Assembly: GCF_039655775.1 (NCBI RefSeq)
Contig: NZ_JBBYXJ010000002.1
Location: 434,001-498,000, forward strand
Source: Iodidimonas sp. SYSU 1G8
GTDB lineage: Bacteria; Pseudomonadota; Alphaproteobacteria; SMXS01
Reading direction: 5' to 3'
DNA length: 64,000 bases
Shown one piece after another: positions 6,862 through 56,724 of the stretch. The translations under genes were made by a program, and so were the position numbers. Under the pieces are notes generated by a model that saw only the letters and a program-made list of their open reading frames with translations, did no database searches and had not been told where the DNA came from. Position 1 is the stretch's first letter, and every line of letters starts with the position of its first letter.

Positions 6862-8232
6862 ATGAGCGTGATGCAGGCCATCAACCCGGCCACCGGCGAC
6901 GTGATCGCCACCTATCCGGTTCACACCAAGGGCGAGGTCGGCCAGAAGCTCGACAACGCCGCCCGCGCGTTTCGCGACTGGTCACGCACCGCCATCGACG
7001 ACCGCGCCGCGCTGCTGGTCAAGCTGGCCGGCGTGCTGGAGGCGAACAAGGAAACCTATGCCCGCCTGATGACCATGGAGATGGGCAAGCCGATCAAGGA
7101 AGCCCGCGCCGAAGTGGACAAATGCGCCTGGGCGTGCCGCTACTACGCCGAGAACGGCCCCGGCTTCCTCGCCGACGACATCGTCAAGACCGAGGCGCAC
7201 AAGGCCTTCGTCGCCTTCCGTCCGCTGGGCGTGGTGCTGGCCGTCATGCCGTGGAATTTCCCGTTCTGGCAGGTGCTGCGCTTCGCCATTCCCAGCCTGC
7301 TCGCCGGTAACACGGCGGTGCTCAAGCATGCCTCGAACGTGCCCGGCTGCGCGCTCGCCATCGAGGAGGCGCTGCGCGAGGCGGGGCTGCCGGACGGTGC
7401 GTTCCACACGCTGATGATCCCGAGCGGCATGGTCGGCGACGTGATCGAGCACGGCGCCGTTCGCGCCGTCACCCTGACCGGCAGCAACGCCGCCGGCCGC
7501 GCCATCGCCGCCAAGGCCGGCGCGTGCCTGAAGAAGTCGGTGCTCGAGCTGGGCGGAAGCGACCCGTTCGTGGTGCTGGAAGACGCCGACCTGGACAAGG
7601 CCGCCGAAGCCGGGGCTGCCAGCCGCTTGTTCAACACGGGCCAGGCCTGTATCGCGGCCAAGCGGTTCATCGTCATCGACAGCATCGCCAAGCGGTTCGA
7701 GGAGAAGCTGGCGGAGCGGTTGCTGGCCCGCAAGATGGGCGATCCCATGGATGACAGCGTCGCCCTCGGATCCCTCGCCCGCGCCGATCTGCGCGACGAG
7801 TTGCACGATCAGGTCGCCCGCAGCCTGAAAAGCGGCGCGCGCAACGTCCTGGGCGGCCAGATCCCGAAGGACGCCGGGGCGTTCTATCCGGCGACCATCC
7901 TGGACGGGGTGGAGAAGGGCATGGCGGCGTTCGACGAGGAACTGTTCGGTCCGGTCGCGTCGATCATCCGGGCCAAGGACGAGGCCGAGGCGCTCGCCAT
8001 CGCCAATGATTCGCCGTTCGGTCTGGGCGCGGCCGTGTTCACCGAGGACAAGACGCGCGGCGAGCGCATCGCCAAGGAAGGCCTCGAGGCCGGCGTCTGC
8101 TTCGTCAACGATTTCGTGAAGTCCGATCCGCGCCTGCCGTTCGGCGGCATCAAGGAAAGCGGCTATGGCCGCGAACTGGGCATTTTCGGCATCCGCGAGT
8201 TCACCAATGTGAAAACAGTGGTCGTCGCCTAG
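6862..8232 (+). CDS. NAD(P)-dependent aldehyde dehydrogenase, succinate-semialdehyde dehydrogenase-like
   Basis: Oxidises an aldehyde to the acid with NAD(P)+. The 456-aa protein has the full ALDH layout: N-terminal INPATGDVIATYP, VLAVMPWNFPFWQ, cofactor region TLTGSNAAGR, catalytic general base E229 in LELGGSDPF and nucleophile C263 in NTGQACIAAKR, then EELFGPVASI and PFGGIKESGYGRELG. The short N-terminus and this last motif match the GabD/YneI group, so succinate semialdehyde is the likeliest substrate, but other aldehydes are possible. It ends by overlapping the convergent ion-channel gene by 4 bases. Confidence 0.88.
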   Translation: MSVMQAINPATGDVIATYPVHTKGEVGQKLDNAARAFRDWSRTAIDDRAALLVKLAGVLEANKETYARLMTMEMGKPIKEARAEVDKCAWACRYYAENGPGFLADDIVKTEAHKAFVAFRPLGVVLAVMPWNFPFWQVLRFAIPSLLAGNTAVLKHASNVPGCALAIEEALREAGLPDGAFHTLMIPSGMVGDVIEHGAVRAVTLTGSNAAGRAIAAKAGACLKKSVLELGGSDPFVVLEDADLDKAAEAGAASRLFNTGQACIAAKRFIVIDSIAKRFEEKLAERLLARKMGDPMDDSVALGSLARADLRDELHDQVARSLKSGARNVLGGQIPKDAGAFYPATILDGVEKGMAAFDEELFGPVASIIRAKDEAEALAIANDSPFGLGAAVFTEDKTRGERIAKEGLEAGVCFVNDFVKSDPRLPFGGIKESGYGRELGIFGIREFTNVKTVVVA

Positions 8233-9038
8233 TCCACGAACGGCCGCACGGATTCCTCGGCCTCGGCCTCCTTCTTGCGGCGCTGCAATGCGTCGCTGAA
8301 GGCGGCGGCGAGGATGCCGGCGGGCATGGCGATCAGGCCGATACCCATGACGGCGGTGATCGCCGCCAGGATCCGGCCCAGCGGCGTCACCGGGAAGACG
8401 TCGCCATATCCGACGGTGGTCAGCGTGACGATGGACCACCACATGGCGCGCGGGATGCTGCCGAAATTGTCGGGCTGGGCCTCGCCCTCGACGAAATAGA
8501 GCAGGGTCGAAGACACCACGAGCACGAACATGGCCGCGCAGACGCTGAGCATCAGCTCGTAGCGCCGCGAGGCGACGGCCTCGATGATGAAATGCATGGC
8601 CTGCGAGAAACGGCCCAGCCGCGTGACGCGCAGGATGCGGAACAGCCGGACCGCGCGGAGCAGGAACGGTTCACTGCCGGCGAAGGTCAGGAACACGGGC
8701 AGCAGCGCGACCAGATCGAGGATGGCCGCCGGTGTCTTCATGAAACGCAGCCGGCCGGCCCAGCCCGGCCCGTATTTGGGGTTTTCGGCGCTGATCCACA
8801 CGCGGACGAGGTACTCGGCCCCGAAGATCACCGTGAACAGCCATTCCGCCGCGAGGAACAGCCGGGCGTGTCCGCCGACCAGCGACTGCTCTGTTTCCAG
8901 GATCGCGGTGAGGGCCGACAGCAGGATCAGCACGCAGATGATCTTGTTGAACAGGGAAAGGCCGCGCCGGGACCCTTCCGTCTCCAGGTGCTCATAGACG
9001 ATCCGCCGCAAGTTTACGGTCGTCCGCGCGCCTTCCAT
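8229..9038 (-). CDS. Voltage-gated potassium channel
   Basis: Six-helix K+ channel subunit (269 aa) acting as a tetramer in the inner membrane. Selectivity filter TTVGYGD lies at about 207-213, between the pore helix and S6. The S4 voltage sensor is unusually clear: arginines at 128, 131, 134, 137, 140 and 143, every third residue, in the stretch starting LLRAVRLFRILR. A charged tail (LQRRKKEAEAEE) follows S6 and there is no RCK domain. The ATG at 9038 is preceded by GGTGGGGGA; an upstream start at 9068 would add 10 residues. Likely role: setting or sensing membrane potential, possibly in osmoadaptation. Confidence 0.9.
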   Translation of the reverse strand: MEGARTTVNLRRIVYEHLETEGSRRGLSLFNKIICVLILLSALTAILETEQSLVGGHARLFLAAEWLFTVIFGAEYLVRVWISAENPKYGPGWAGRLRFMKTPAAILDLVALLPVFLTFAGSEPFLLRAVRLFRILRVTRLGRFSQAMHFIIEAVASRRYELMLSVCAAMFVLVVSSTLLYFVEGEAQPDNFGSIPRAMWWSIVTLTTVGYGDVFPVTPLGRILAAITAVMGIGLIAMPAGILAAAFSDALQRRKKEAEAEESVRPFVD

Positions 9039-9219
9039 GTGTCCCCCACCAACGCCCGCGAGCGTCACCGCGCATTCCGGAAAAGCCGAAGTGTGGCAGA
9101 GGGCGCGGCGAAATCAACGACGCGTATGCAGGGTGATGGCGGATTCGCCCGTTGCGCGGCCCCGCGACGCGCCGTACCGTGGGTAACCACATGGTAACAG
9201 CGGCTGGGGAGGCGCGCGG

Positions 9220-10887
9220 ATGGCTCGGGCAGAGATTCTCATCACCAACGGATTGATCGTCGACGGCTCCGGCGCCGCGCCGTTCACGGGCGATATCGCC
9301 ATCGCCGATGGCCGGATCGTTGCGGTCGGCGCGTTCGAGGGCGACGCGGCGCGGGTGATCGACGCGGCGGGCAAGGCCGTCGCGCCGGGTTTCATCGACA
9401 TCCACACCCACTATGATCCGCAATTGTGCTGGGACCGGCTGGCGACGCCCTCGCTGGAGCATGGCTGCACCACGGTGGTGATCGGCAATTGCTCGCTGTC
9501 CGTGGCGCCGATCCGCGACAAGGCGGCGGCCAGGAAGCTGGTGAGCATGTTCCGGGTCATCGAGGACATCGGCGACGCCACCTTCGAGGCGGGCGTGCCC
9601 TGGTCGTGGGAAAGCTTTCCCGACTATCTCGACTTTATCCGCGACGGGCTGGGCATCAATGTGGGCGCGCTGGTCGGCCATTCGGTGCTGCGCCTCTACG
9701 TCATGGGCGAGGCCGCGCAGGAGCGCGTGGCCACCGACGAGGAGATCGGCGAGATGGTCCGGCTGTTGAAGCAGGCCATGGACGCCGGCGCCATCGGCCT
9801 GTCCACCTCCTATGTGGATATCGACGAGAACATGAAGCCGGTGCCGAGCCGCTTCGCCGACATGCGGGAAAAACTCGCTCTCGCGCGCGCCATGGCCGAG
9901 ACCGGGCGCGGCGTGATGCAGACCGTGCCGTTCTTCCTCGACCCGGTGAAGCAGCTCGCCTGCATCGACGAACTGGCCGAGATTTCGCGCCAGACCGGGG
10001 TGATGTGCACTCTCGCCCCCATCGTCTACAGTCCCATGGGCAGCCTCTGGCAGGACTCGCTGGACCGGCTGACCGCGGTGCGCGAGGCCGGCGCGAACGT
10101 CTATGGCCAGTCCATGCCGCGGCCCTTCGACCTCAACATGCGCCTGTCGGAAAACTCGTTCCTGCTGCTGTCCATGCCCAGCTGGGCCAAGGCGTTGAAA
10201 ATGGGGCTGACGGACCGGCTGGCCTATTTCTCCGACCCGGCGACACAAGAAATTCTGATCGAGGAGATGAGCGCGGGGGCGATCATGGCCGCGTTCGGCA
10301 AGCTGCGCGTCGGCCGCGTCACCCATCCGGACAACAAGCCCTATGAGGGCCGGGCGCTGCACGAGGTGGCGAACGAACTGGGCGTGCCCATGCCGCGCGC
10401 CATGATCGATATCGCGCTGCGCGACGGGCTCGAGGCCGAATTCCAGCTGGTCGGCGCCATCCATGGCGACGAGAATTTCGTGGCGCGGATCCTCGACCAT
10501 CCGGCCTGCCTGGTGGGCGCATCGGACGCGGGAGCGCATATCGCCCAGTTCTGCGGCGCGGGGGACACCTGCTACATGCTGTCGCGCCATGTGCGCGAAC
10601 GCGGCGACATGACCCTGGAGCGCGCCGTGTTCCGCATGACCAAGGAAGTGGCAGACGCCTGGGGCATCGAGGGGCGCGGCCTGCTGAAACCGGGGATGGC
10701 GGCGGACGTGGTCGTGTTCGATCCGGCGACCATCGACCGGGGCGAGGAGGTTTTCGTGCATGACGTGCCGGGCAACGCCAACCGTTATATCCGGCACCCG
10801 TCCGGCATCGAGGCCGTGATCGTCAACGGCGCCCTCGCCGTCGACCGCGGCGTCTACACGGACGCGCGGGCTGGCGCGGTCGTCTGA
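9220..10887 (+). CDS. D-aminoacylase / N-acyl-D-amino-acid deacylase family amidohydrolase
   Basis: Amidohydrolase-3 family metalloenzyme (555 aa) that would hydrolyse N-acyl-D-amino acids or related amides. The N-terminal beta-sandwich segment ILITNGLIVDGSG is followed by GFIDIHTHYDPQ with metal ligands H62 and H64. The zinc-binding cysteine typical of D-aminoacylases is present as C91 in VIGNCSLS. Later motifs include GHSVLR, LVGASDAGAHIAQF with the catalytic Asp, and RGLLKPGMAADVVVFDP at the C-terminus. Divergent from the channel gene. Exact substrate not known; many members of this subgroup are annotated only as amidohydrolases. Confidence 0.87.
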   Translation: MARAEILITNGLIVDGSGAAPFTGDIAIADGRIVAVGAFEGDAARVIDAAGKAVAPGFIDIHTHYDPQLCWDRLATPSLEHGCTTVVIGNCSLSVAPIRDKAAARKLVSMFRVIEDIGDATFEAGVPWSWESFPDYLDFIRDGLGINVGALVGHSVLRLYVMGEAAQERVATDEEIGEMVRLLKQAMDAGAIGLSTSYVDIDENMKPVPSRFADMREKLALARAMAETGRGVMQTVPFFLDPVKQLACIDELAEISRQTGVMCTLAPIVYSPMGSLWQDSLDRLTAVREAGANVYGQSMPRPFDLNMRLSENSFLLLSMPSWAKALKMGLTDRLAYFSDPATQEILIEEMSAGAIMAAFGKLRVGRVTHPDNKPYEGRALHEVANELGVPMPRAMIDIALRDGLEAEFQLVGAIHGDENFVARILDHPACLVGASDAGAHIAQFCGAGDTCYMLSRHVRERGDMTLERAVFRMTKEVADAWGIEGRGLLKPGMAADVVVFDPATIDRGEEVFVHDVPGNANRYIRHPSGIEAVIVNGALAVDRGVYTDARAGAVV

Positions 10888-10996
10888 CGGACTGTCAAAA
10901 AAACTTCACTGGCGCAGGCCCCCCGGTTTGGGAACCATCAGAGCGACGAGGCCGCCGCGCGGGCGGCACGGCTGTCCTATTGTCCTTGGAGTGACC

Positions 10997-11518
10997 ATGC
11001 CCAGCGACGGCGTCTACGATGTCCTGTTCTTCTGCACCCGCAACGCGGCGCGCAGCATTATCGCCGAGGCCATCCTCAACCAGCTGGGAGCCGGCAAGTT
11101 CAAGGGCTACAGCGCGGGCACCGCGCCCAGCGGCGAGATCGATCCCCATGCGCTGAATCTGCTGGAGCAGATGGGCCATCCCATCGAGGGCCTGCGCTCG
11201 AAATCCATCGAGGAGTTCAGCGGTCCGGACGCCCAGCCGTTCGATTTCATCATCACCATATGCGACAAGGCCACGGGCGAGACCGTGCCGGTCTGGCCGG
11301 GCCGTCCGATTACCGCCGAATGGACCTTCCCGGATCCCTCGCGCTTCGATGATGGCGAGAACAGCGAGGCCGAGATCGCCGCCGAGTTCGCCGAGACCTA
11401 CAAGGACATCCACGCCCTGCTGTCGACCTTCGTCAGCCTGCCGCCCGAATCGCTCGACCGGCTGAGCCTGGAGAATTTGAACAGCACCACGGCCCGGCAC
11501 GTTCCCCGGTCGGCCTGA
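10997..11518 (+). CDS. ArsC/low-molecular-weight phosphatase family protein lacking the third redox cysteine
   Basis: 173-aa protein of the LMW-PTPase/arsenate-reductase fold. The P-loop CX5R is present as CTRNAARS (C13, R19), as is the acid loop FPDPS with D113. The region ICDKATGETVPVWPG matches thioredoxin-coupled ArsC, with the second redox cysteine at C89, but the third cysteine normally found just before PVWPG is a valine here. The thioredoxin-linked cysteine relay of classical ArsC would therefore be incomplete. The protein may act as a phosphatase or use another reductant. The ATG at 10997 follows TTGGAG. No ars genes are beside it. Confidence 0.78.
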   Translation: MPSDGVYDVLFFCTRNAARSIIAEAILNQLGAGKFKGYSAGTAPSGEIDPHALNLLEQMGHPIEGLRSKSIEEFSGPDAQPFDFIITICDKATGETVPVWPGRPITAEWTFPDPSRFDDGENSEAEIAAEFAETYKDIHALLSTFVSLPPESLDRLSLENLNSTTARHVPRSA

Positions 11519-47984: not shown

Positions 47985-48671
47985 ATGAAGAGTGCCAACA
48001 AGTTGATGGCGGCTGCCGTCTGCTCGGCAGTCAGTGTCGTCATGGGCGCGTCGGCCGCGCTCGGCAATGGCTTCCTCGAGAATCGTCCGTGGCAGTTTGA
48101 CACCGCCAACGACAAGATCGCCAAGGCGTCCATCGCCGATCTTCGCGAGAAGAAGAAGGGCGGGTATTACGACGGTTTCGACACGACCATCAACAACAGC
48201 TATGCCACCAACATCGCGGGCGATCAGATCAACTGTAATCTAACGGCGTCCGCGATCGGCAATACGGCGTCCAACGGCGTCACCAGCAACGCATCGTCGC
48301 CCACCGTGGATACGCCCGGTTCGATCGGCGCGGATGCGACCGGTAATATCAGCACCACCTCGACGAACGGCACCAAGCCGACCAACGGGGCGAACAGCTC
48401 GGCGACGAGCAGTTCGACGGGCCAGTCGTCGGCCGTGGGACAGGCGGGTCAGCTGAGCAACACCTCGCAGGGCAATACGGGAAGCCCGCAGACCGCGAGC
48501 GTGGATAATTCGACGATTTCGAGCAGTGTCGACAACATGAACACGTCCGGGGGGACTTCGGAAGTCGCGCTCAACTCGAATATGGGCAATGAAGACAGCC
48601 CGCAGACCGCCAGCGTGGCGGACAGCCAGGCATGTGGGTTTAGTGAGTCGGCGTCCGCGCCGCTCAACTAG
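47985..48671 (+). CDS. Exported Ser/Asn/Thr-rich protein with one repeat unit, putative fibre subunit
   Basis: 228 aa. Signal peptide of about 27 residues (MAAAVCSAVSVVMGASAALG). After a charged segment (IADLREKKKGGYYDGFDTT) the protein is dominated by Ser, Thr, Asn, Gly and Ala. The stretch NLTASAIGNTASNGVTSN matches the repeat core of the giant protein at 51497. SPQTASV occurs twice (NTGSPQTASVDNS and NEDSPQTASVADS). Two Cys near the ends. Composition and position suggest a secreted minor subunit or nucleator, comparable in place to HfaA/CsgB, but I see no direct homology. GGAGGGGG lies 4 bases before the ATG. Confidence 0.6.
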   Translation: MKSANKLMAAAVCSAVSVVMGASAALGNGFLENRPWQFDTANDKIAKASIADLREKKKGGYYDGFDTTINNSYATNIAGDQINCNLTASAIGNTASNGVTSNASSPTVDTPGSIGADATGNISTTSTNGTKPTNGANSSATSSSTGQSSAVGQAGQLSNTSQGNTGSPQTASVDNSTISSSVDNMNTSGGTSEVALNSNMGNEDSPQTASVADSQACGFSESASAPLN

Positions 48672-48731
48672 ACGCGAAGTCGGTGGCCGGGAGCTTGACT
48701 TCCGGCGCCGTGGGGCAGGAGGGGGAATACC

Positions 48732-50048
48732 GTGATCGTTAGCTGGTCTAAGAAGATCGTCACATGTGGTGCCATCGTGGCGCTGACTGCCTGTACGGCG
48801 TCGGTTGACCACTACAAGCGGCACTCCGATGAGGCGCCAACCGTGCAGGGTCCGCCCGTCACCGATAATACGACGCCGCTCGAAGGCTCTTATCAGTGCA
48901 TGGCCGAGAAGATCCGCGAGACAGGCCGGAACAAGATCCGTGTCGCTGTCGGCAACATCAAGGATTACACGGGCAAGTTCAGCGAATCGGAAGGCGGTAA
49001 CCCGATCACCCAGGGCGGCGCCCTGATGGTGATGTCGGCGCTCGGCAAGCTGGGCGACGCGGTGCGCCTGCAGGAACGCTTCGACACCCAGGTGACGGAA
49101 CTGGAATTGCGCTACCTGGACCGGCGCTATCTGGGCGACGGTTCGGTGCATGAAGTCCGCGGCAAGACCGGCGGTTCGCAGAAGGTTCCGTGGAAGCCCT
49201 ATTACGGCGGCACGGTCATCGAATCCGACTACTTCATCGTCGGCGGCATCACCGAGCTGAACTACAACGTGCATTCCGGCGGTCTCGAAGTCGTCGTCGA
49301 CGGCATCGGGGGCAAGGGCCGCGTCTTCACCGTCAACGTGGCCGTCGATCTGCGTATCGTCGATACCTCGTCGCTGGAAGTGCTCAAGACGGTCAGCCTG
49401 CAGAAGCAGATCACCGGCTATGAAGTCGGCGTGAACGTGTTCGAGTTCTTCAAGAACACGCTGGTCGACGTGAGCGGTGGCCTGAAGAGCCAGGAGCCCC
49501 TGCAGCTCGGCGTGCGCACCACGCTCGAACTCGGCGTTCTGGAACTGATCGGTTCGGTCGCCGGCGTCGACGAAAAGCCGCTGGTCAATTTCGACGGCGT
49601 CAACCCGTGCCCGACCGTGGGCGGCGTACCCGCCGCCGTCGTGCCGACGCCGGTCGCCGAGGTTCCGCCTCCGGTCGAGGCGCCGGCCCCGGCTCAGTCG
49701 AGCAATTTCACGGTCTACTTCGCCACCGGCAGCGCCGAGCTGACGCCCGAAGCGCTCAAGACCATCAAGGATGCCGCCGCCGCCGCCAAGGCCGGTCAGG
49801 CCGCCAACCTGCTGCTCGAAGGCCATACGGACACCCAGGGTGGCGAGCTTTACAACCTGGATCTCTCGCGCCGCCGTGCCGTGGTGGTTCAGGGCGCGCT
49901 TGTCCAGGAAGGCATCGTGAAGAACCGCATCTCGCTGGTGTGGTATGGCGAGAGCCAGCCGGCGGTGAAGACGGCCGATGGTGTGGCCGAGCCGCTGAAT
50001 CGCCGCGTCGTCATCCAGATCCTGGAAGATACCGCGCTGTTGAAGTAG
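48732..50048 (+). CDS. CsgG/HfaB-type secretion lipoprotein fused to a C-terminal OmpA domain
   Basis: 438-aa outer-membrane lipoprotein, lipobox LTAC at C21. Residues about 55-290 match the CsgG/HfaB family: RNKIRVAVGNIKDYTGKF, ITQGGALMVMSALGKLGD, YFIVGGITELNYNVHSGG, VDLRIVDTSSLEVLKTVSLQ. CsgG forms a nonameric pore that exports curli subunits; HfaB anchors the Caulobacter holdfast. A Pro-rich linker (about 295-318) leads to an OmpA domain ending at 438: FTVYFATGSAELTPEAL, and LLLEGHTDTQGGELYNLDLS followed by RRRA, with Asp and Arg for peptidoglycan binding. The fusion would tie the pore to the cell wall. 60 bases after the previous gene. Confidence 0.85.
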   Translation: MIVSWSKKIVTCGAIVALTACTASVDHYKRHSDEAPTVQGPPVTDNTTPLEGSYQCMAEKIRETGRNKIRVAVGNIKDYTGKFSESEGGNPITQGGALMVMSALGKLGDAVRLQERFDTQVTELELRYLDRRYLGDGSVHEVRGKTGGSQKVPWKPYYGGTVIESDYFIVGGITELNYNVHSGGLEVVVDGIGGKGRVFTVNVAVDLRIVDTSSLEVLKTVSLQKQITGYEVGVNVFEFFKNTLVDVSGGLKSQEPLQLGVRTTLELGVLELIGSVAGVDEKPLVNFDGVNPCPTVGGVPAAVVPTPVAEVPPPVEAPAPAQSSNFTVYFATGSAELTPEALKTIKDAAAAAKAGQAANLLLEGHTDTQGGELYNLDLSRRRAVVVQGALVQEGIVKNRISLVWYGESQPAVKTADGVAEPLNRRVVIQILEDTALLK

Positions 50049-50076
50049 GTCCCGATACGAACCACAGGAGGTTGCT

Positions 50077-51285
50077 GTGACACTGACGTGGTTCGGTACG
50101 GGTTTGTTGATTGCCGGGGTGTCCGCGTTGGTCTCAGCGCCTGTCGCGGCCCAGCCACTCAACATTGCCTCGCCCCAGGAAGCAGCGCCGGTCGATGCCG
50201 GCCTGCCCCTGGGCGGTGAGGAAGAGACGGATCAGTCTCCTTCATTCGTGACCAGGCCTCCTGCGTCCGCCTCCCAGACACCTGCTCCGGGTACATACGG
50301 CGTGGAGTGGGCGGATCATGTCTCGCCCTCGTTCCGGCGCTGGGTTCAGGGCGGCGATGTGGTTGCCGCCCCGCCCGCCGATCCGGCGATTCGCAACCGG
50401 CCGGACGCGGAGCAGACGGCCAGCGATCTGAATACGGTCGAGAACGCTCGGGAAAGAGTAAAGACCGCTTCGGCGGGCGTCCCCGCCTCGGCCGCCGCAA
50501 CGCGGTTTCTCAAGAGGATCAGCCGCTCGCATGCCCGCGCGATCGTGGGACCCGAGGGCGCCCTGATGGGCGCGGAACTGGCGGACGGTATCCAGATGAC
50601 GCCGCTCACCCGCAGCCGCAGCAAGGGGACCCTGTTCGACCGGTCGTTGCCCGACGCCGGTGCGCCGCCCAAATTGGCCCAGGCGCCGTTACCCGGCCCG
50701 GGACCGTTGCAGGACATGCCGGCGCCGGAGACCTATGACGGCGCGCCCCTGTTCGGCATGGAGGGCGATCAGCCGCGGGAAAAAGGGTATACGCTCGCGG
50801 TCCGCGATGGCGCGGTCATCGGCATGGAACTGGGCGATCACGTCAGCGTGGTCCATGTCTCCCGTTTCGCCAAGGGCGAGGCGCCGGACTCGGGCGAGGT
50901 GGCCATCTATCCCCGGTCGCGCTACCGGCCCTTCGGTCCGATCAATTCCTTCGAACATCTGGATCCGTTTCTCGCGATCAATGTGGAGCCGCTCCAGACC
51001 GCGGCCGATCCCAGCGATCCCGCCCCTGTCGCGCGCAGCGCCTACGCCATCGGGTTCTGGGACCTGCCAGGCGACGTGCCCATGCCGCTGTCCGACAAAT
51101 CCATGTACGAATTCCGCGACCGTCTGATCGCCGATCAGCGTGATCCGCGCAATTGTTGCGGTCCGACGCGGATCACGGTGATGCACAATCCGCTCGCCAT
51201 CGCCATCCTGCCGAACTCGTTCAATTCCATGCCGGGCCAGACGGCGCAGGTCGTGCCGCTAGCGCCGGGCATGCCGGCCTGGTAA
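50077..51285 (+). CDS. Exported protein of unknown function in the fibre locus
   Basis: 402 aa starting at a GTG with AGGAGG five bases upstream. The signal peptide ends near residue 25 (hydrophobic core GLLIAGVSALVSAP, cleavage after VAA). A Pro/Ala/Glu-rich disordered region (about 40-75) precedes two more ordered parts: KRISRSHARAIVGPEGALMG and YTLAVRDGAVIGMELGDHVS, and the end with DPRNCCGPTRITVMHNPLAI (paired Cys). I recognise no family. Its place, 28 bases after the CsgG-like gene, suggests an accessory factor of the same system, such as a periplasmic chaperone or assembly protein. Confidence 0.6.
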   Translation: MTLTWFGTGLLIAGVSALVSAPVAAQPLNIASPQEAAPVDAGLPLGGEEETDQSPSFVTRPPASASQTPAPGTYGVEWADHVSPSFRRWVQGGDVVAAPPADPAIRNRPDAEQTASDLNTVENARERVKTASAGVPASAAATRFLKRISRSHARAIVGPEGALMGAELADGIQMTPLTRSRSKGTLFDRSLPDAGAPPKLAQAPLPGPGPLQDMPAPETYDGAPLFGMEGDQPREKGYTLAVRDGAVIGMELGDHVSVVHVSRFAKGEAPDSGEVAIYPRSRYRPFGPINSFEHLDPFLAINVEPLQTAADPSDPAPVARSAYAIGFWDLPGDVPMPLSDKSMYEFRDRLIADQRDPRNCCGPTRITVMHNPLAIAILPNSFNSMPGQTAQVVPLAPGMPAW

Positions 51286-51496
51286 TCGGGCGCGGCCGGG
51301 CCTGACGCGCCCATCTCCTTACGAATATTACGGTTTCAAAACACCCAGTCTGGGTAGAGCCGCCCTTTTCCTCTGGCCCTTCGTTGCGGCTTTGGGTTAG
51401 CATATCGTTACGGCTGCGAGAGGGGCTGCCGTTCCGCGTGCTTTTGTCGGCTAACCAAGGCATGCGGGAAATGTGGGCTATTATGGGGGCTACCAA

Positions 51497-54400
51497 ATGA
51501 AGATGAATCGCGTACTGGCGACGGTGAGTGTCGTTGCCTTGACCACGGCTGCCGGCATGACTGGCGCCCGGGCCGACAACGTGCTCTATGATCTGAGCGC
51601 CATTCCGCCGACCATCACGGCCGCGGCGGCCAGCGCTTCGGTGATCACCAGCAACCAGCTGGACAGCGTAACCTCCATCACCGCCACCAACTCGGTCACC
51701 CTGATCGGCGCGCCGCTCGTCGGCACCCACGACCTTGAAGGCGGCACCGATTCGGTCTTCGTCGACATCAACGACATCTTCGCCGAAGCCACGGGCAACA
51801 CGAAGACCAACAGCGTCGACCTCAACACCGCTACCGGCGCGCCGACCCTGAACGCGGCCACCGCCGCGACGCTGCAGGTCAATTTCGGCGGCGGCACCGC
51901 GACGCTGGATGCGGCCGTCACGACCGCGACCATCCGCGCCGACTTCGAGGATGCCGGCACGGGCAGCAATCTCGTCGTTGACGCCAACACGGTGCGTGCC
52001 GACGCGGTGGTGAACGAGGCCACGAACACGGTCGCCGGCGACATCAACCAGCTGCTGACCAGCACGGAAGCCGGTGGCTCCGTGGTCTCTCTGCCGGGCA
52101 CCCCGAACGAACTGACGGCCGGCGCGACGGTGCTGACGGCGAACGCCCAGCTGATCGACAATCTCGCTTCCCCGATGGCCAGCGTCGATGAGACGCGCAT
52201 TGGTCTCGGCGCCACGGTCGACGGCACGCCGGCCTCGCTGGTCGGTGTCAATCTGGACGTCACCGACAACCTGGTGCGGGCCCGCTTCAACGGCAACGAC
52301 GCCACCAACCGGGTCGCGGTCGCCGATGGCGGCGCGGTCACGCTCAATGGCACGGCCGGCGTCGCCAATCTACAGAGCGCGGCAGGCGTGGACGCCTTCG
52401 CCGCAAGCATCACGAACACGGTGATCGAACTAGGCGACACGTCACCCGTCACCGACGAAGCGATCGCCGACCTGACCGGCAGCACGGCCGAGTTCACCGG
52501 CAACGACATTCTCGGCGCGGTCGCGTCCAACAGTTCGGTCAACTCGGTCGCGCTGGCGGACACGGTCAGCCAGAACCCGGTCAACGGCACCCAGGTCAAC
52601 GCGGTCGATTTCACCGGCGGCACCCTCCTGCAGGTTGGCGCCGATCTGTTCGTCCAGAACGTCCAGTATGCCGAGGTGGACGCCAACGCCAACGTGAATG
52701 GCGATCTCAACGTTCTGATCGAGGACGTGTCCGGCTCGACGGTGCTCGCGGATGGCAACAGCGTCGGCGCGACCGCGACGGGAAATGCGACCGTCAATGC
52801 CATCGGCGTGGGCGATGCGACCACCTTCTCGTCCATCACCGCCGTGCAGTCGGTGCAGTATGCGGAAGGGGCGCAAATCGCCAATTCGGGCGCGAGCATT
52901 AACGGCTCCAACCTCAGTGTCTCCATTGCCAGCCTCAACGCCAATGGCGATATCGTCTCGACCGCGGTATCGACCACGGACAACCGCCTGTATACCGAGG
53001 CGATGGGCAACACCCATGACAGCAGCATCGCCATCGACGGCACCACGCTCAATTCCGTGGGGGGCCTCAATGGCGCGGGCGTCGACAGAAGTCTGTCCGA
53101 ATCCTCCATTGCCGCCGATACCAGCCTCCTGACTGGTCAGGTGCTGGATGGCGGCGGCGCGCAGGCGACGACCATCTCGCGCATCCGCGTCGATGCCTCG
53201 CTGGCCGGCACGCCGACGTCCGACATCACCTCGTCGACCATCGATACGTCGGAGAACGAGATTTCGGCGCTGGCGATCGGCAACCTGTCCACCGAAGCCA
53301 GCATCGCCCTCGACGCGACCAGCGTGGGGTCGGGCGCGGCGGTGGTGAGCGTGCAGACGGTCGAGGACGGCGCGTCGCTGAGCGCTCGGACCGACTCGCC
53401 CATCGGCAATCAGAGCCAGGTCGAAGTGTGGGGCTTCCCCGCGCAGATCGTCGACTCGTCCATCAACACCGACGGCAACGTGTTCAGCGCGCGGGTTTTC
53501 GGCAATCTGGTCGACGGCACGGGTAACTCGCTGGATGTCGATGCGACCACGATCACCAGCAACAATCTGGTTCCTGGCAACGGGTCGGCGAACAATCGTA
53601 GCCTGCCGGGCAACACCGCATTCGCCGACATGCTCGTGATCAACGACCAGTCGGTCGAGGATCTGGAAGGCTCGGTCGTCACGGCGGTCAACGGCCAGGC
53701 GGCCGATGCCGGCCAGGGGGATTTGGTGTTCGTGCGGATCGGCCTCAGCGATCAGTTCGCGCTGAGCAACACGGATTTCACCATCAACGACAATCAGGGC
53801 GTGGTCGCCGCCACGCTCAACCAGGCGGTGTCCTCGGCCACGGTCGCTGCCGTGACGAACAACGCGGGAACGGCTCTGCTCAACGTGCAGTCGGTGCGCG
53901 ACGAAGACGGCAATGGCAGCTCGGCCGGCCTCGTCGCCAACCAGTATGACGCGGACATGACGCTGAGCATCGGCGCCAATGCGGACGGCGCGCCCCTATC
54001 CATCGCCGATGGCAATTTCGAGATCGTCAGCAATGATCTGCTGGCGTCGGGCCGTGTCAATCTGGCGACCAACACGGTCGCGGTCTCCGGCCAGAGCCAG
54101 ACCATCGTCGGCAAGCAGACCGCCGGCCAGGAAACCGCGGTGCTGGACGTGCAGGTGGAGACGTTCGGCGTGACGTCGCTGTTGAACGACCAGTCCTTCG
54201 TCGATCTGTCGCCCACGGGAATCGGCAGCGGCGTGGGCGTGGTGAACGACAATTCCGACTTCAGCATGGTGATCGCGACGGACGGCGCTTTCGCCAACAG
54301 CGTCGCACAGATCGATGACAACACCATGCGCGTCCAGGCCCTGGGCAACGATGCCAGCAACAGCCTGACCGTGGCGATCGACACGTTCGACCTGTCGCAG

Positions 54401-56668
54401 GCGGCGGTCGGTGCGACTCCGCTCAACCTCTCCCTCGGCAGCCTCGTCTCGCGTCAGGAAGGTATCACGGACACCGCGGCCGATGGCGAGATGCTGGCCA
54501 ACGCCATCAGCGTGCGCGCAATTCTGGACATGAGCGACGTGACCGGCTCCATCTCCGGCGCCGACATCACCACCGATGGCAACAGCATGCGCACCATCGC
54601 GCGGACCAACAACGTCACCAACGTGCTGACCGCCACGGGCACCACCCTGCCGGACGTGGAAGGCGTGACCGCGCCGTCGGCGGCCGTGCTCGACGACACG
54701 AGCGGCGTCGCCATCGTGTACACGGACGCGGTATTCGGGGTCGCCTCCCAGCAGACCAATGGCATCGACATCACGTCGGTGATCGAAGGCTCGGGCGGCG
54801 GCACGCCGTCAGGCATGCGCATCGTCGCCGATGGCGCCGCCACCATCGACGGCACCGATCTGTCGGCCAGCGGCAACGCCATCGTGGCGGAAGCGCGCGG
54901 CAACGACTCGGGCAACGGCGCGTCGCTGAATTACACCAGCAACAGCGCGCAGGTCTTCGTCACCAACGTTCAGCAGGTCACCGACTACGATCCGTTCATC
55001 GAGGCGCGCGTGTTCGATGCCGAGATTCTCGTCGACGTGGATGGCGACACGATCGGCATCGCGCCGGTGATCAACGCGTCCAGTGTCGTGCTGGACGGCA
55101 ACGCCATCGCCGCGCTGGCCTCGTCCAACCGCACCACCAACAGCGTCAGCGTCAGCGGCACCAACGTGCTCAGCGGATCGGACGCGGCGTCGCGAGGCGT
55201 GGTCATTGATAACGGCCTGTCGCCGCTGATCGGCGTCACCGGCGACATCGCCCTGATCAATGCGCAGGGCGCGACCGCGTTCACCTCGCCCGACCAGGAC
55301 GAGGAACTGCTGGCGGTGGTCGATACCGCGAACATCGTGGCGGACGTCGCGACCCTCAACACCGGGTCGGTGAGCATCGACAACAACGTGGTGCTCAGCC
55401 AGGGCATCGTCCAGAACGCCAGCAACACGCTGGCGCTGAACGCCTCGGCCAATGTGGGCGCGGTGGGCGATACCCCGAACGCGCTCCTGATGTCCTACCA
55501 GGCCTTCGCGGATGATTCCGAGGTCAACACCGATACGTTCGACGTGACGATCGGCGTCATCGACGCGGCCAACACGGGCGCCGTCGAGGGCATCGCGGAC
55601 ATGGCGGATCTGGGCAGCGCCTCGGCGTCTGTCGCCGGCAACTCCGTCTCCGGCGTCGCCATGGGCGGCACCGCGACCAACCGTCTGACGGTGACGGCCG
55701 GCGCCGAAATCGTCGGCGGCACGGCCGCGCCGGTCCTGACGGTGGGCAACCCGGAGAATGATCCGGTCACGTTCCAGAATGCCGATTACACGGTGGTCAA
55801 CCTTCAGGTCGGTCTGACTGACGGCAGCGACATCGAAGCCGACGTCGACAACACCCTGATCGGTGTCAGCATCGCTTCCGACATCGCCAATGACAGCCTG
55901 ACGGTCGACAACAATCTGGTGCAGGCGCAGGTCCGCGGCTTCGCCTCGACCAACACGCTGGCGTTGACCGCCGGCTCGTCGAGCGACGCGACGGCACAGG
56001 TCGGCAACCTGCAGTTCGTCGACGGCTTCGACGATATCCAGGGCGAGATCACCGACACCACGATCATCGCCACGGTCGATGGCGGCGCGCTGAACAGCGG
56101 CGTCAGTGTCTCGGACAATCTGGTGTCCGCCTCCACCGCGGGCAACACGGCGCTCAACGCCCTGTCGACCACGGCGCAGGCGACCCTTCAGGAATCCAGC
56201 GGCGCGGGCTCGGTGCTCACACCGGGCGGCGCGGTCGAAATCGCGGTGACCGGCACCGATTACGCGGTCCTCAACCGCCAGTCGGTGAGCGATGTGGGTG
56301 AAATCGACTCGACCATTGGCAACGCGGCGGTCGGCATCGACGACCTGTCTGGTGCCGGCGGTGTCGACGCCACGGCGCTCGACGTGAATGGCAACACCCT
56401 GCTCGCATCGGCGACGGCCAATGACGCGGTCAACTCGCTGGTCCTGAACACGGGTACGTTCCAGCACCCGTCCTCGTCCATCGCCAGCCTGCAGACCACC
56501 AGCGATACCACCGTCAGCGCCTCGGCGAGCAATGTGAGTGTCGGTGTCGGCCTGGGCGGCGGCCTGCTCTCGGGCACCAGCAGCAACAGCAGCGTGACCG
56601 TTCGCGGCAACGTGGTGGGCGCCACGGCCATCGGCAACAGCGCGGTCAGCGCCATCAGCGGCAACTGA
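51497..56668 (+). CDS. Giant secreted repeat protein, putative adhesin or fibre
   Basis: 1,723 aa. Signal peptide of 26 residues (cleaved after GARA). The rest is about 20 imperfect units of roughly 85 residues, each with a first part around V-x-N-x-Q-x-V-x-D and a second with GN-x-V-x-A-x-A-x-GN-x-A-x-N-S-V (examples ADGNSVGATATGNATVNAIG, VDNNLVQAQVRGFASTNTLA). It is rich in Asn, Asp, Ser, Thr, Ala and Val and poor in Lys; I saw no Cys. There is no barrel, anchor or sorting signal at the end, so export must depend on a partner, plausibly the CsgG-type pore upstream. GGGGG lies 7 bases before the ATG. The Asn/Gln ladders recall curlin. Confidence 0.75.
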   Translation: MKMNRVLATVSVVALTTAAGMTGARADNVLYDLSAIPPTITAAAASASVITSNQLDSVTSITATNSVTLIGAPLVGTHDLEGGTDSVFVDINDIFAEATGNTKTNSVDLNTATGAPTLNAATAATLQVNFGGGTATLDAAVTTATIRADFEDAGTGSNLVVDANTVRADAVVNEATNTVAGDINQLLTSTEAGGSVVSLPGTPNELTAGATVLTANAQLIDNLASPMASVDETRIGLGATVDGTPASLVGVNLDVTDNLVRARFNGNDATNRVAVADGGAVTLNGTAGVANLQSAAGVDAFAASITNTVIELGDTSPVTDEAIADLTGSTAEFTGNDILGAVASNSSVNSVALADTVSQNPVNGTQVNAVDFTGGTLLQVGADLFVQNVQYAEVDANANVNGDLNVLIEDVSGSTVLADGNSVGATATGNATVNAIGVGDATTFSSITAVQSVQYAEGAQIANSGASINGSNLSVSIASLNANGDIVSTAVSTTDNRLYTEAMGNTHDSSIAIDGTTLNSVGGLNGAGVDRSLSESSIAADTSLLTGQVLDGGGAQATTISRIRVDASLAGTPTSDITSSTIDTSENEISALAIGNLSTEASIALDATSVGSGAAVVSVQTVEDGASLSARTDSPIGNQSQVEVWGFPAQIVDSSINTDGNVFSARVFGNLVDGTGNSLDVDATTITSNNLVPGNGSANNRSLPGNTAFADMLVINDQSVEDLEGSVVTAVNGQAADAGQGDLVFVRIGLSDQFALSNTDFTINDNQGVVAATLNQAVSSATVAAVTNNAGTALLNVQSVRDEDGNGSSAGLVANQYDADMTLSIGANADGAPLSIADGNFEIVSNDLLASGRVNLATNTVAVSGQSQTIVGKQTAGQETAVLDVQVETFGVTSLLNDQSFVDLSPTGIGSGVGVVNDNSDFSMVIATDGAFANSVAQIDDNTMRVQALGNDASNSLTVAIDTFDLSQAAVGATPLNLSLGSLVSRQEGITDTAADGEMLANAISVRAILDMSDVTGSISGADITTDGNSMRTIARTNNVTNVLTATGTTLPDVEGVTAPSAAVLDDTSGVAIVYTDAVFGVASQQTNGIDITSVIEGSGGGTPSGMRIVADGAATIDGTDLSASGNAIVAEARGNDSGNGASLNYTSNSAQVFVTNVQQVTDYDPFIEARVFDAEILVDVDGDTIGIAPVINASSVVLDGNAIAALASSNRTTNSVSVSGTNVLSGSDAASRGVVIDNGLSPLIGVTGDIALINAQGATAFTSPDQDEELLAVVDTANIVADVATLNTGSVSIDNNVVLSQGIVQNASNTLALNASANVGAVGDTPNALLMSYQAFADDSEVNTDTFDVTIGVIDAANTGAVEGIADMADLGSASASVAGNSVSGVAMGGTATNRLTVTAGAEIVGGTAAPVLTVGNPENDPVTFQNADYTVVNLQVGLTDGSDIEADVDNTLIGVSIASDIANDSLTVDNNLVQAQVRGFASTNTLALTAGSSSDATAQVGNLQFVDGFDDIQGEITDTTIIATVDGGALNSGVSVSDNLVSASTAGNTALNALSTTAQATLQESSGAGSVLTPGGAVEIAVTGTDYAVLNRQSVSDVGEIDSTIGNAAVGIDDLSGAGGVDATALDVNGNTLLASATANDAVNSLVLNTGTFQHPSSSIASLQTTSDTTVSASASNVSVGVGLGGGLLSGTSSNSSVTVRGNVVGATAIGNSAVSAISGN
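51750..56660 (+). repeat. About 20 degenerate protein-level repeats in the giant protein gene
   Basis: Units are recognisable at protein level only; at DNA level they have diverged, so the array is old and not recently expanded. The second-half core occurs as DGNSVGATATGN, SDNLVSASTAGN, NGNTLLASATAN, RGNVVGATAIGN and so on, about every 70-100 residues. The first-half core occurs as NVQSVRDEDG, NVQQVTDYDP, NRQSVSDVGE and NLQFVDGFDD. Confidence 0.8.
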
Positions 56669-56690
56669 TCCGCCAGAACTGGAAATGTCG

Positions 56691-56724
56691 CGGGCCGGCG
56701 TGCGAACGCCGGCCCGTTTCTTTT
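56691..56724 (+). terminator. Rho-independent terminator of the giant repeat protein gene
   Basis: CGGGCCGGCGT and ACGCCGGCCCG form a perfect 11-pair stem around GCGA, followed by TTTCTTTT. It starts 23 bases after the stop codon and ends the fibre locus. Confidence 0.93.

Follow-up and report, generated by a model that had tools for sequence, protein, structure and literature searches.

A CsgG/HfaB-type lipoprotein with an OmpA domain, encoded beside a giant repeat protein in Iodidimonas sp. SYSU 1G8, probably serves the export and assembly of beta-repeat surface proteins

The window analysed here is the whole 64,000-nucleotide stretch of Iodidimonas sp. SYSU 1G8 DNA between positions 434,001 and 498,000 of contig NZ_JBBYXJ010000002.1. 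Towards its end lie four genes, all on the + strand and all with open reading frames (ORFs), as a preliminary description of this DNA had indicated. Gene A (47985-48671), whose ATG is preceded by the stretch GGAGGGGG, codes for an exported, Ser/Asn-rich protein of 228 amino acids. Gene B (48732-50048; 438 aa) codes for an outer-membrane lipoprotein with a CsgG/HfaB pore domain and a C-terminal OmpA (peptidoglycan-binding) domain, and gene C (50077-51285; 402 aa) for a further exported protein. Gene D (51473-56668; 1731 aa as listed) codes for a giant exported repeat protein with 20 scored units; the ATG at 51497 is a likelier start than the listed 51473. A terminator-like hairpin of 12 pairs, 10 of them G-C, is located 3′ of D (56690-56717, + strand). 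The scan for terminators reported 2 sites where shuffles would give 6.0; the scan itself is therefore no evidence, and it is the stem length and the position of the hairpin that count. Reading by eye indicated a signal peptide on A, on C and on D and a lipobox on B, in agreement with the claim that the locus specifies only exported products; the signal peptide on D is of the Sec type and gives D an export signal of its own kind. No named Pfam or NCBIfam family was matched by A, C or D: A and C gave no match at E ≤ 1, and D none over the cut-off.

Profile searches of B placed both of its domains well above the Pfam cut-offs, with 61.5 bits for CsgG (PF03783; cut-off 20.8) and 71 bits for OmpA (PF00691; cut-off 27.2), and the description of the locus as a CsgG pore fused to OmpA and adjoining a giant repeat gene is upheld by these profiles. 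Among solved structures, B matched CsgG chains as well as Pal/OmpA chains. The best NCBIfam model for B was HfaB (NF037935), with a score of 232.2 bits that falls below the 300-bit cut-off of this equivalog. The lipobox was read by eye as LTAC, and its Cys is invariant in an alignment of 87 rows. In the same rows CsgG PF03783 was detected 87 times out of 87, and Pfam OmpA PF00691 15 times (E ≤ 0.001 in both cases). A model of the OmpA part built from the first seven rows gave hits in 51 of the 79 B rows that are of the window's type (E ≤ 0.001, 87-sequence set), which indicates that a divergent OmpA-like tail is common; the remaining rows of this type are short and have no OmpA tail. In a quick tree, which has several long branches and is unsure in its finer points, the 79 rows formed one clade relative to eight other HfaB-type genes of the class (SH-aLRT 97). 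The OmpA part is absent from several branches of the tree, and the well-supported branches force at least two changes. The clade is defined by the type of B, and D is not visible in some members where the contig ends.

The domain structure of B can also be read in another way, namely that B is mainly an OmpA-type envelope-stability lipoprotein, that D is exported otherwise or is periplasmic, and that the neighbourhood reflects only co-regulation. Such a role would fit the Pfam-grade OmpA domain and the HTD...LSRRRA stretch present in it, which we take to be peptidoglycan-binding. However, it is the CsgG domain that every B row has kept, whereas the OmpA part is missing from several branches, and the A-B-D order is preserved across classes (see below). 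We consider a mainly stabilizing role for B to be very improbable.

The A family, as revealed by a 70-row alignment, has a conserved region, WQF...DLxxKKKxGYY, and two invariant cysteines (C84 and C217) in proteins that are otherwise variable and Ser/Asn-rich. The cysteine pair suggests a disulfide between C84 and C217. The AF2 model of A was poor (pLDDT 49.2). The preliminary description had proposed a repeat core common to A and D. When scored with the D-repeat HMM, 43 out of 75 A proteins, the one in the window included, exceeded all 20 of their own shuffles, at a mean score of -4.6 bits, and to this extent the proposal gains some support; the profile-profile comparison of A with the D repeats, with a probability of 1.1%, gave it none. 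Any link between A and the D repeats would be a weak one.

Matches to C were confined to the window's genus and one sister genus, and an invariant CCG is found near its C terminus (6/6 rows). A-B-C-D had been put forward as a four-gene unit. It was rejected as such because C has this restricted occurrence; furthermore, five other genomes have a complete A-B-C, and in three of them D is not adjacent. The conserved core is A-B-D, which occurs also outside this window.

D is an Asn/Gln/Ala-rich protein of ∼1.73 kaa, with a repeat unit of ∼85 aa and a Gln/Asn ladder. It is not a chance ORF, since its counterpart in genome G005 is 53.7% identical to it over 1748 aligned residues. The D-repeat model found 22 rows in the D of the window, 20 of which had positive scores. 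All 24 D copies longer than 1600 aa in the genus and the sister genus have either 19 (n = 5) or 20 (n = 19) units, as counted with a model trained on these 24 copies among others, and the pairwise identity of 23 aligned copies is only 31-65%. The D proteins of sphingomonads (∼1,000-1,200 aa) have 13 units in 14 out of 15 cases, the exception being L150 with 11, and two Variovorax types carry 21-22 and 17-18 units. Across 1541 units three residues are near-fixed: Q9 (99%), N44 (98%) and N53 (88%). With Pfam and NCBIfam no autotransporter barrel, two-partner (TPS) or type I (RTX) domain was found in D, in keeping with the earlier statement that it has no known export domain, and two other D proteins likewise showed no such domain in a search of this type.

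The C-terminal part is the best conserved section of D in the 23 aligned copies. An AF2 model of the last 450 residues (55316-56665, + strand), based on 48 sequences, was confident and all beta (pLDDT 87.6, pTM 0.87). No significant Foldseek match was obtained with this part. A second fold comparison returned chains of the beta-helix class, with SufB-SufD as the best (Z 8.6); hence, no new fold is claimed.

CsgA of Pontibacter was among the matches of the second comparison (Z 7.7, but with an rmsd of 8.5), and a Gln/Asn ladder is also a property of curlins, so that D could be regarded as a classic amyloid subunit like the curlins. Nevertheless, the Pfam curlin repeat (PF07012) had no match in the window's genome, with a positive E. 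coli control, and curlin repeats were rejected on this result; D also contains no copy of the curli motif QxGxxN. Furthermore, the D unit of ∼85 aa stands against a minimal curli motif of 23 residues, X6QXGX2NX10, as given in PMC3521004. A curlin-type subunit deserves hardly any credence here. No CsgE or CsgF match was found either, in the window or across the whole genome (E. coli control positive), which leaves B with no known gating factor. The locus resembles curli (CsgA-G) in having a CsgG pore domain and a Gln/Asn-rich repeat substrate devoid of an outer-membrane domain, but D is one giant chain whereas the curli subunits are small. Judged by its sequence, the system is not curli. PMC3521004 also states that an ordinary-sized CsgG lets through CsgA homologues carrying as many as 22 repeats, and this provides a precedent for large CsgG substrates, although with a much shorter unit.

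The genome to which the window belongs (3.92 Mb in two contigs) contains two CsgG-family genes and five full D copies. A near-full B was found in four of the six other genomes of the genus; G004 has a piece of it at a contig end, and G003 has D pieces together with B matches limited to OmpA parts. Among three genomes from other genera of the family, G007 has a B with 75% identity. A and C accompany B at L036-L039, and at L040 (G007) there is a clear A and a C of weak similarity. D adjoins the locus in the window, in G005 (L038) and in G007 (L040). In G001, G002 and G006 the gene after C is phosphofructokinase-like (named by eye), and the D copies lie elsewhere. Five D copies are present in G005, and ten near-full copies plus one cut by the contig end in G006. 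No match to A, B or C was observed in 20 stretches around other D copies.

One further D paralogue is located ∼6 kb past the end of the window (L063, 6060-11519), and at a matching place in related species a D copy adjoins genes that by eye are TamA/TamB-like. The D genes of G006 are paired in tandem at L068, L070, L071 and L072, pointing to local amplification. The second CsgG-family gene of the window's genome is HfaB-like and has no OmpA domain. It is found in L003 (G000 C2:1468000-1486000), where positions 7393-11437 hold the HfaB-like gene followed by genes for a 363-aa repeat-like and a 164-aa exported protein, and a regulator of LuxR-type look was seen nearby by eye. In genome G024, HfaB-type genes of the L003 kind number at least five. 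The HfaB-like gene of L003 could serve some of the D proteins.

To learn how widely the locus is distributed, named genomes were scanned with the CsgG part of B, which gave 516 relatives, and the best 80 of the 516 were kept. An A-like gene was found by blastp in all of these best 80 loci. A and B are on one strand in 79 of the 79 loci in which B was matched as one ORF, and the median distance between the called ORFs is 16 nt; at L137, A and D are present and no single ORF matched B. A repeat ORF of at least 900 aa follows B in 63 of the 69 loci of the best 80 that have more than 4 kb there. Sixty of them were recovered by a filter (N/Q-rich ORF of at least 900 aa, within 2.6 kb), and L118, L144 and L150 were missed by it. 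All 61 first ORFs that passed the filter, one of which sits in a locus with less room, have at least nine units. The six loci without such an ORF are L080-L082, which are from the same genus and have D elsewhere, L156, L101, where a 432-aa ORF with 3 units follows B, and L117, where the repeat gene is in three ORFs. A 1093-aa ORF near the HfaB-type gene of L043 contains no D units. The labels among the best 80 include Variovorax, Halomonas, Solimonas, Novosphingobium, Sphingomonas and roseobacters, with single records labelled Planctomycetaceae and Deltaproteobacteria. In a survey of 385 evenly sampled Alphaproteobacteria the A family was present in at least seven; four of these belong to the window's own genus and family, and two were weak. 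This count is a lower bound, because at most eight candidates were scored per genome. The D end was matched in 12 out of 12 genomes chosen for carrying the locus.

Caulobacter HfaABD, too, combines a CsgG-like lipoprotein with a repeat protein and a small exported one. Our locus could be such a holdfast-anchor system with D as an enlarged HfaD, which would tether polysaccharide to the envelope and build no protein fibre. The pore and the gene order resemble hfaABD: HfaB is the best family of B, and the order small exported gene, HfaB, repeat gene matches that of L167, the first gene of which was named by eye. In addition, Q.N.G and AxAxGN motifs are found in HfaD-type proteins, three of four of which outscored every one of their 20 shuffles when searched with the D-repeat HMM, the one of L168 alone with a positive score. 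However, B is here OmpA-fused, scores below the HfaB cut-off and belongs to the separate clade mentioned above, and D, at 1.73 kaa against the 374 positions of the HfaD model, is far longer and multicopy. The HfaD model NF037936 had no match in the window's genome, with a positive Caulobacter control, and D as canonical HfaD was rejected on this result; the absence of CsgE, CsgF and HfaD noticed earlier in the window extends to the whole genome. Profile-profile comparison did not equate A with HfaA or D with HfaD: A against three HfaA-type proteins, assigned by position and by eye, gave an hhalign probability of 0.6%, and D against four HfaD-type proteins, only one of which is over the HfaD cut-off, gave 0.5%. 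None of the three HfaA-type proteins exceeded its own shuffles with the D-repeat HMM. Finally, Variovorax and Halomonas, which carry the locus, are to our knowledge not known as holdfast makers. Taken together, we regard the holdfast anchor as an unlikely alternative.

We propose that the locus probably encodes a CsgG/HfaB-type, type VIII-like module that exports and assembles giant beta-repeat surface proteins. No description of such a module was met in the open-access literature searched, as had been surmised. A and D would cross the inner membrane by Sec. B would assemble into a CsgG-like oligomeric pore in the outer membrane, with its OmpA domain fastening it to peptidoglycan. D would pass this pore unfolded and, once outside, fold into a long rod or fibre of beta repeats that may serve adhesion or matrix. 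A, in the HfaA position, may be a co-exported minor subunit, a cap or a nucleator. A dependence of this kind is described in PMC6707917, where surface HfaA and HfaD depend on HfaB. A further likeness, by description, is to MafA/MafB of Neisseria, in which an outer-membrane lipoprotein likened by the authors to CsgG exports its partner; MafB, however, acts as an antibacterial toxin, unlike the repeat surface proteins considered here (PMC7738311).

The module likely exports giant repeat proteins both in cis and in trans, and one B pore would also serve the D paralogues encoded elsewhere on the chromosome. Export in trans is proposed because the genome has five D genes but two CsgG-family genes, because three species have A-B-C but no D beside it, their D copies being elsewhere, and because neither A, B nor C accompanies those other copies in the 20 stretches. 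Most D genes of the genus are unlinked to B, so that their use of the B pore would rest on homology.

More tentatively, we suggest as a possibility that these loci represent an undescribed CsgG-type branch in several classes, in which a peptidoglycan-tethered pore would thread unfolded chains of 100-200 kDa and of set repeat number (13, 17-18, 19-20 or 21-22 units, depending on the lineage), which, once outside, would fold to give rods of a fixed length. A single pore of this kind in the window's genus would serve five to eleven dispersed giant substrates and thereby vary the surface coat. If this is true, CsgG-type pores export single chains ∼ten times larger than the small curlins, in alpha-, beta- and gammaproteobacteria, and D, with its set number of units and its Gln/Asn ladder, would be a beta-rod of defined length. 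CsgG pores are already in use as nanopore sensors, and D would be useful for testing how unfolded giant chains pass the outer membrane without a known energy source.
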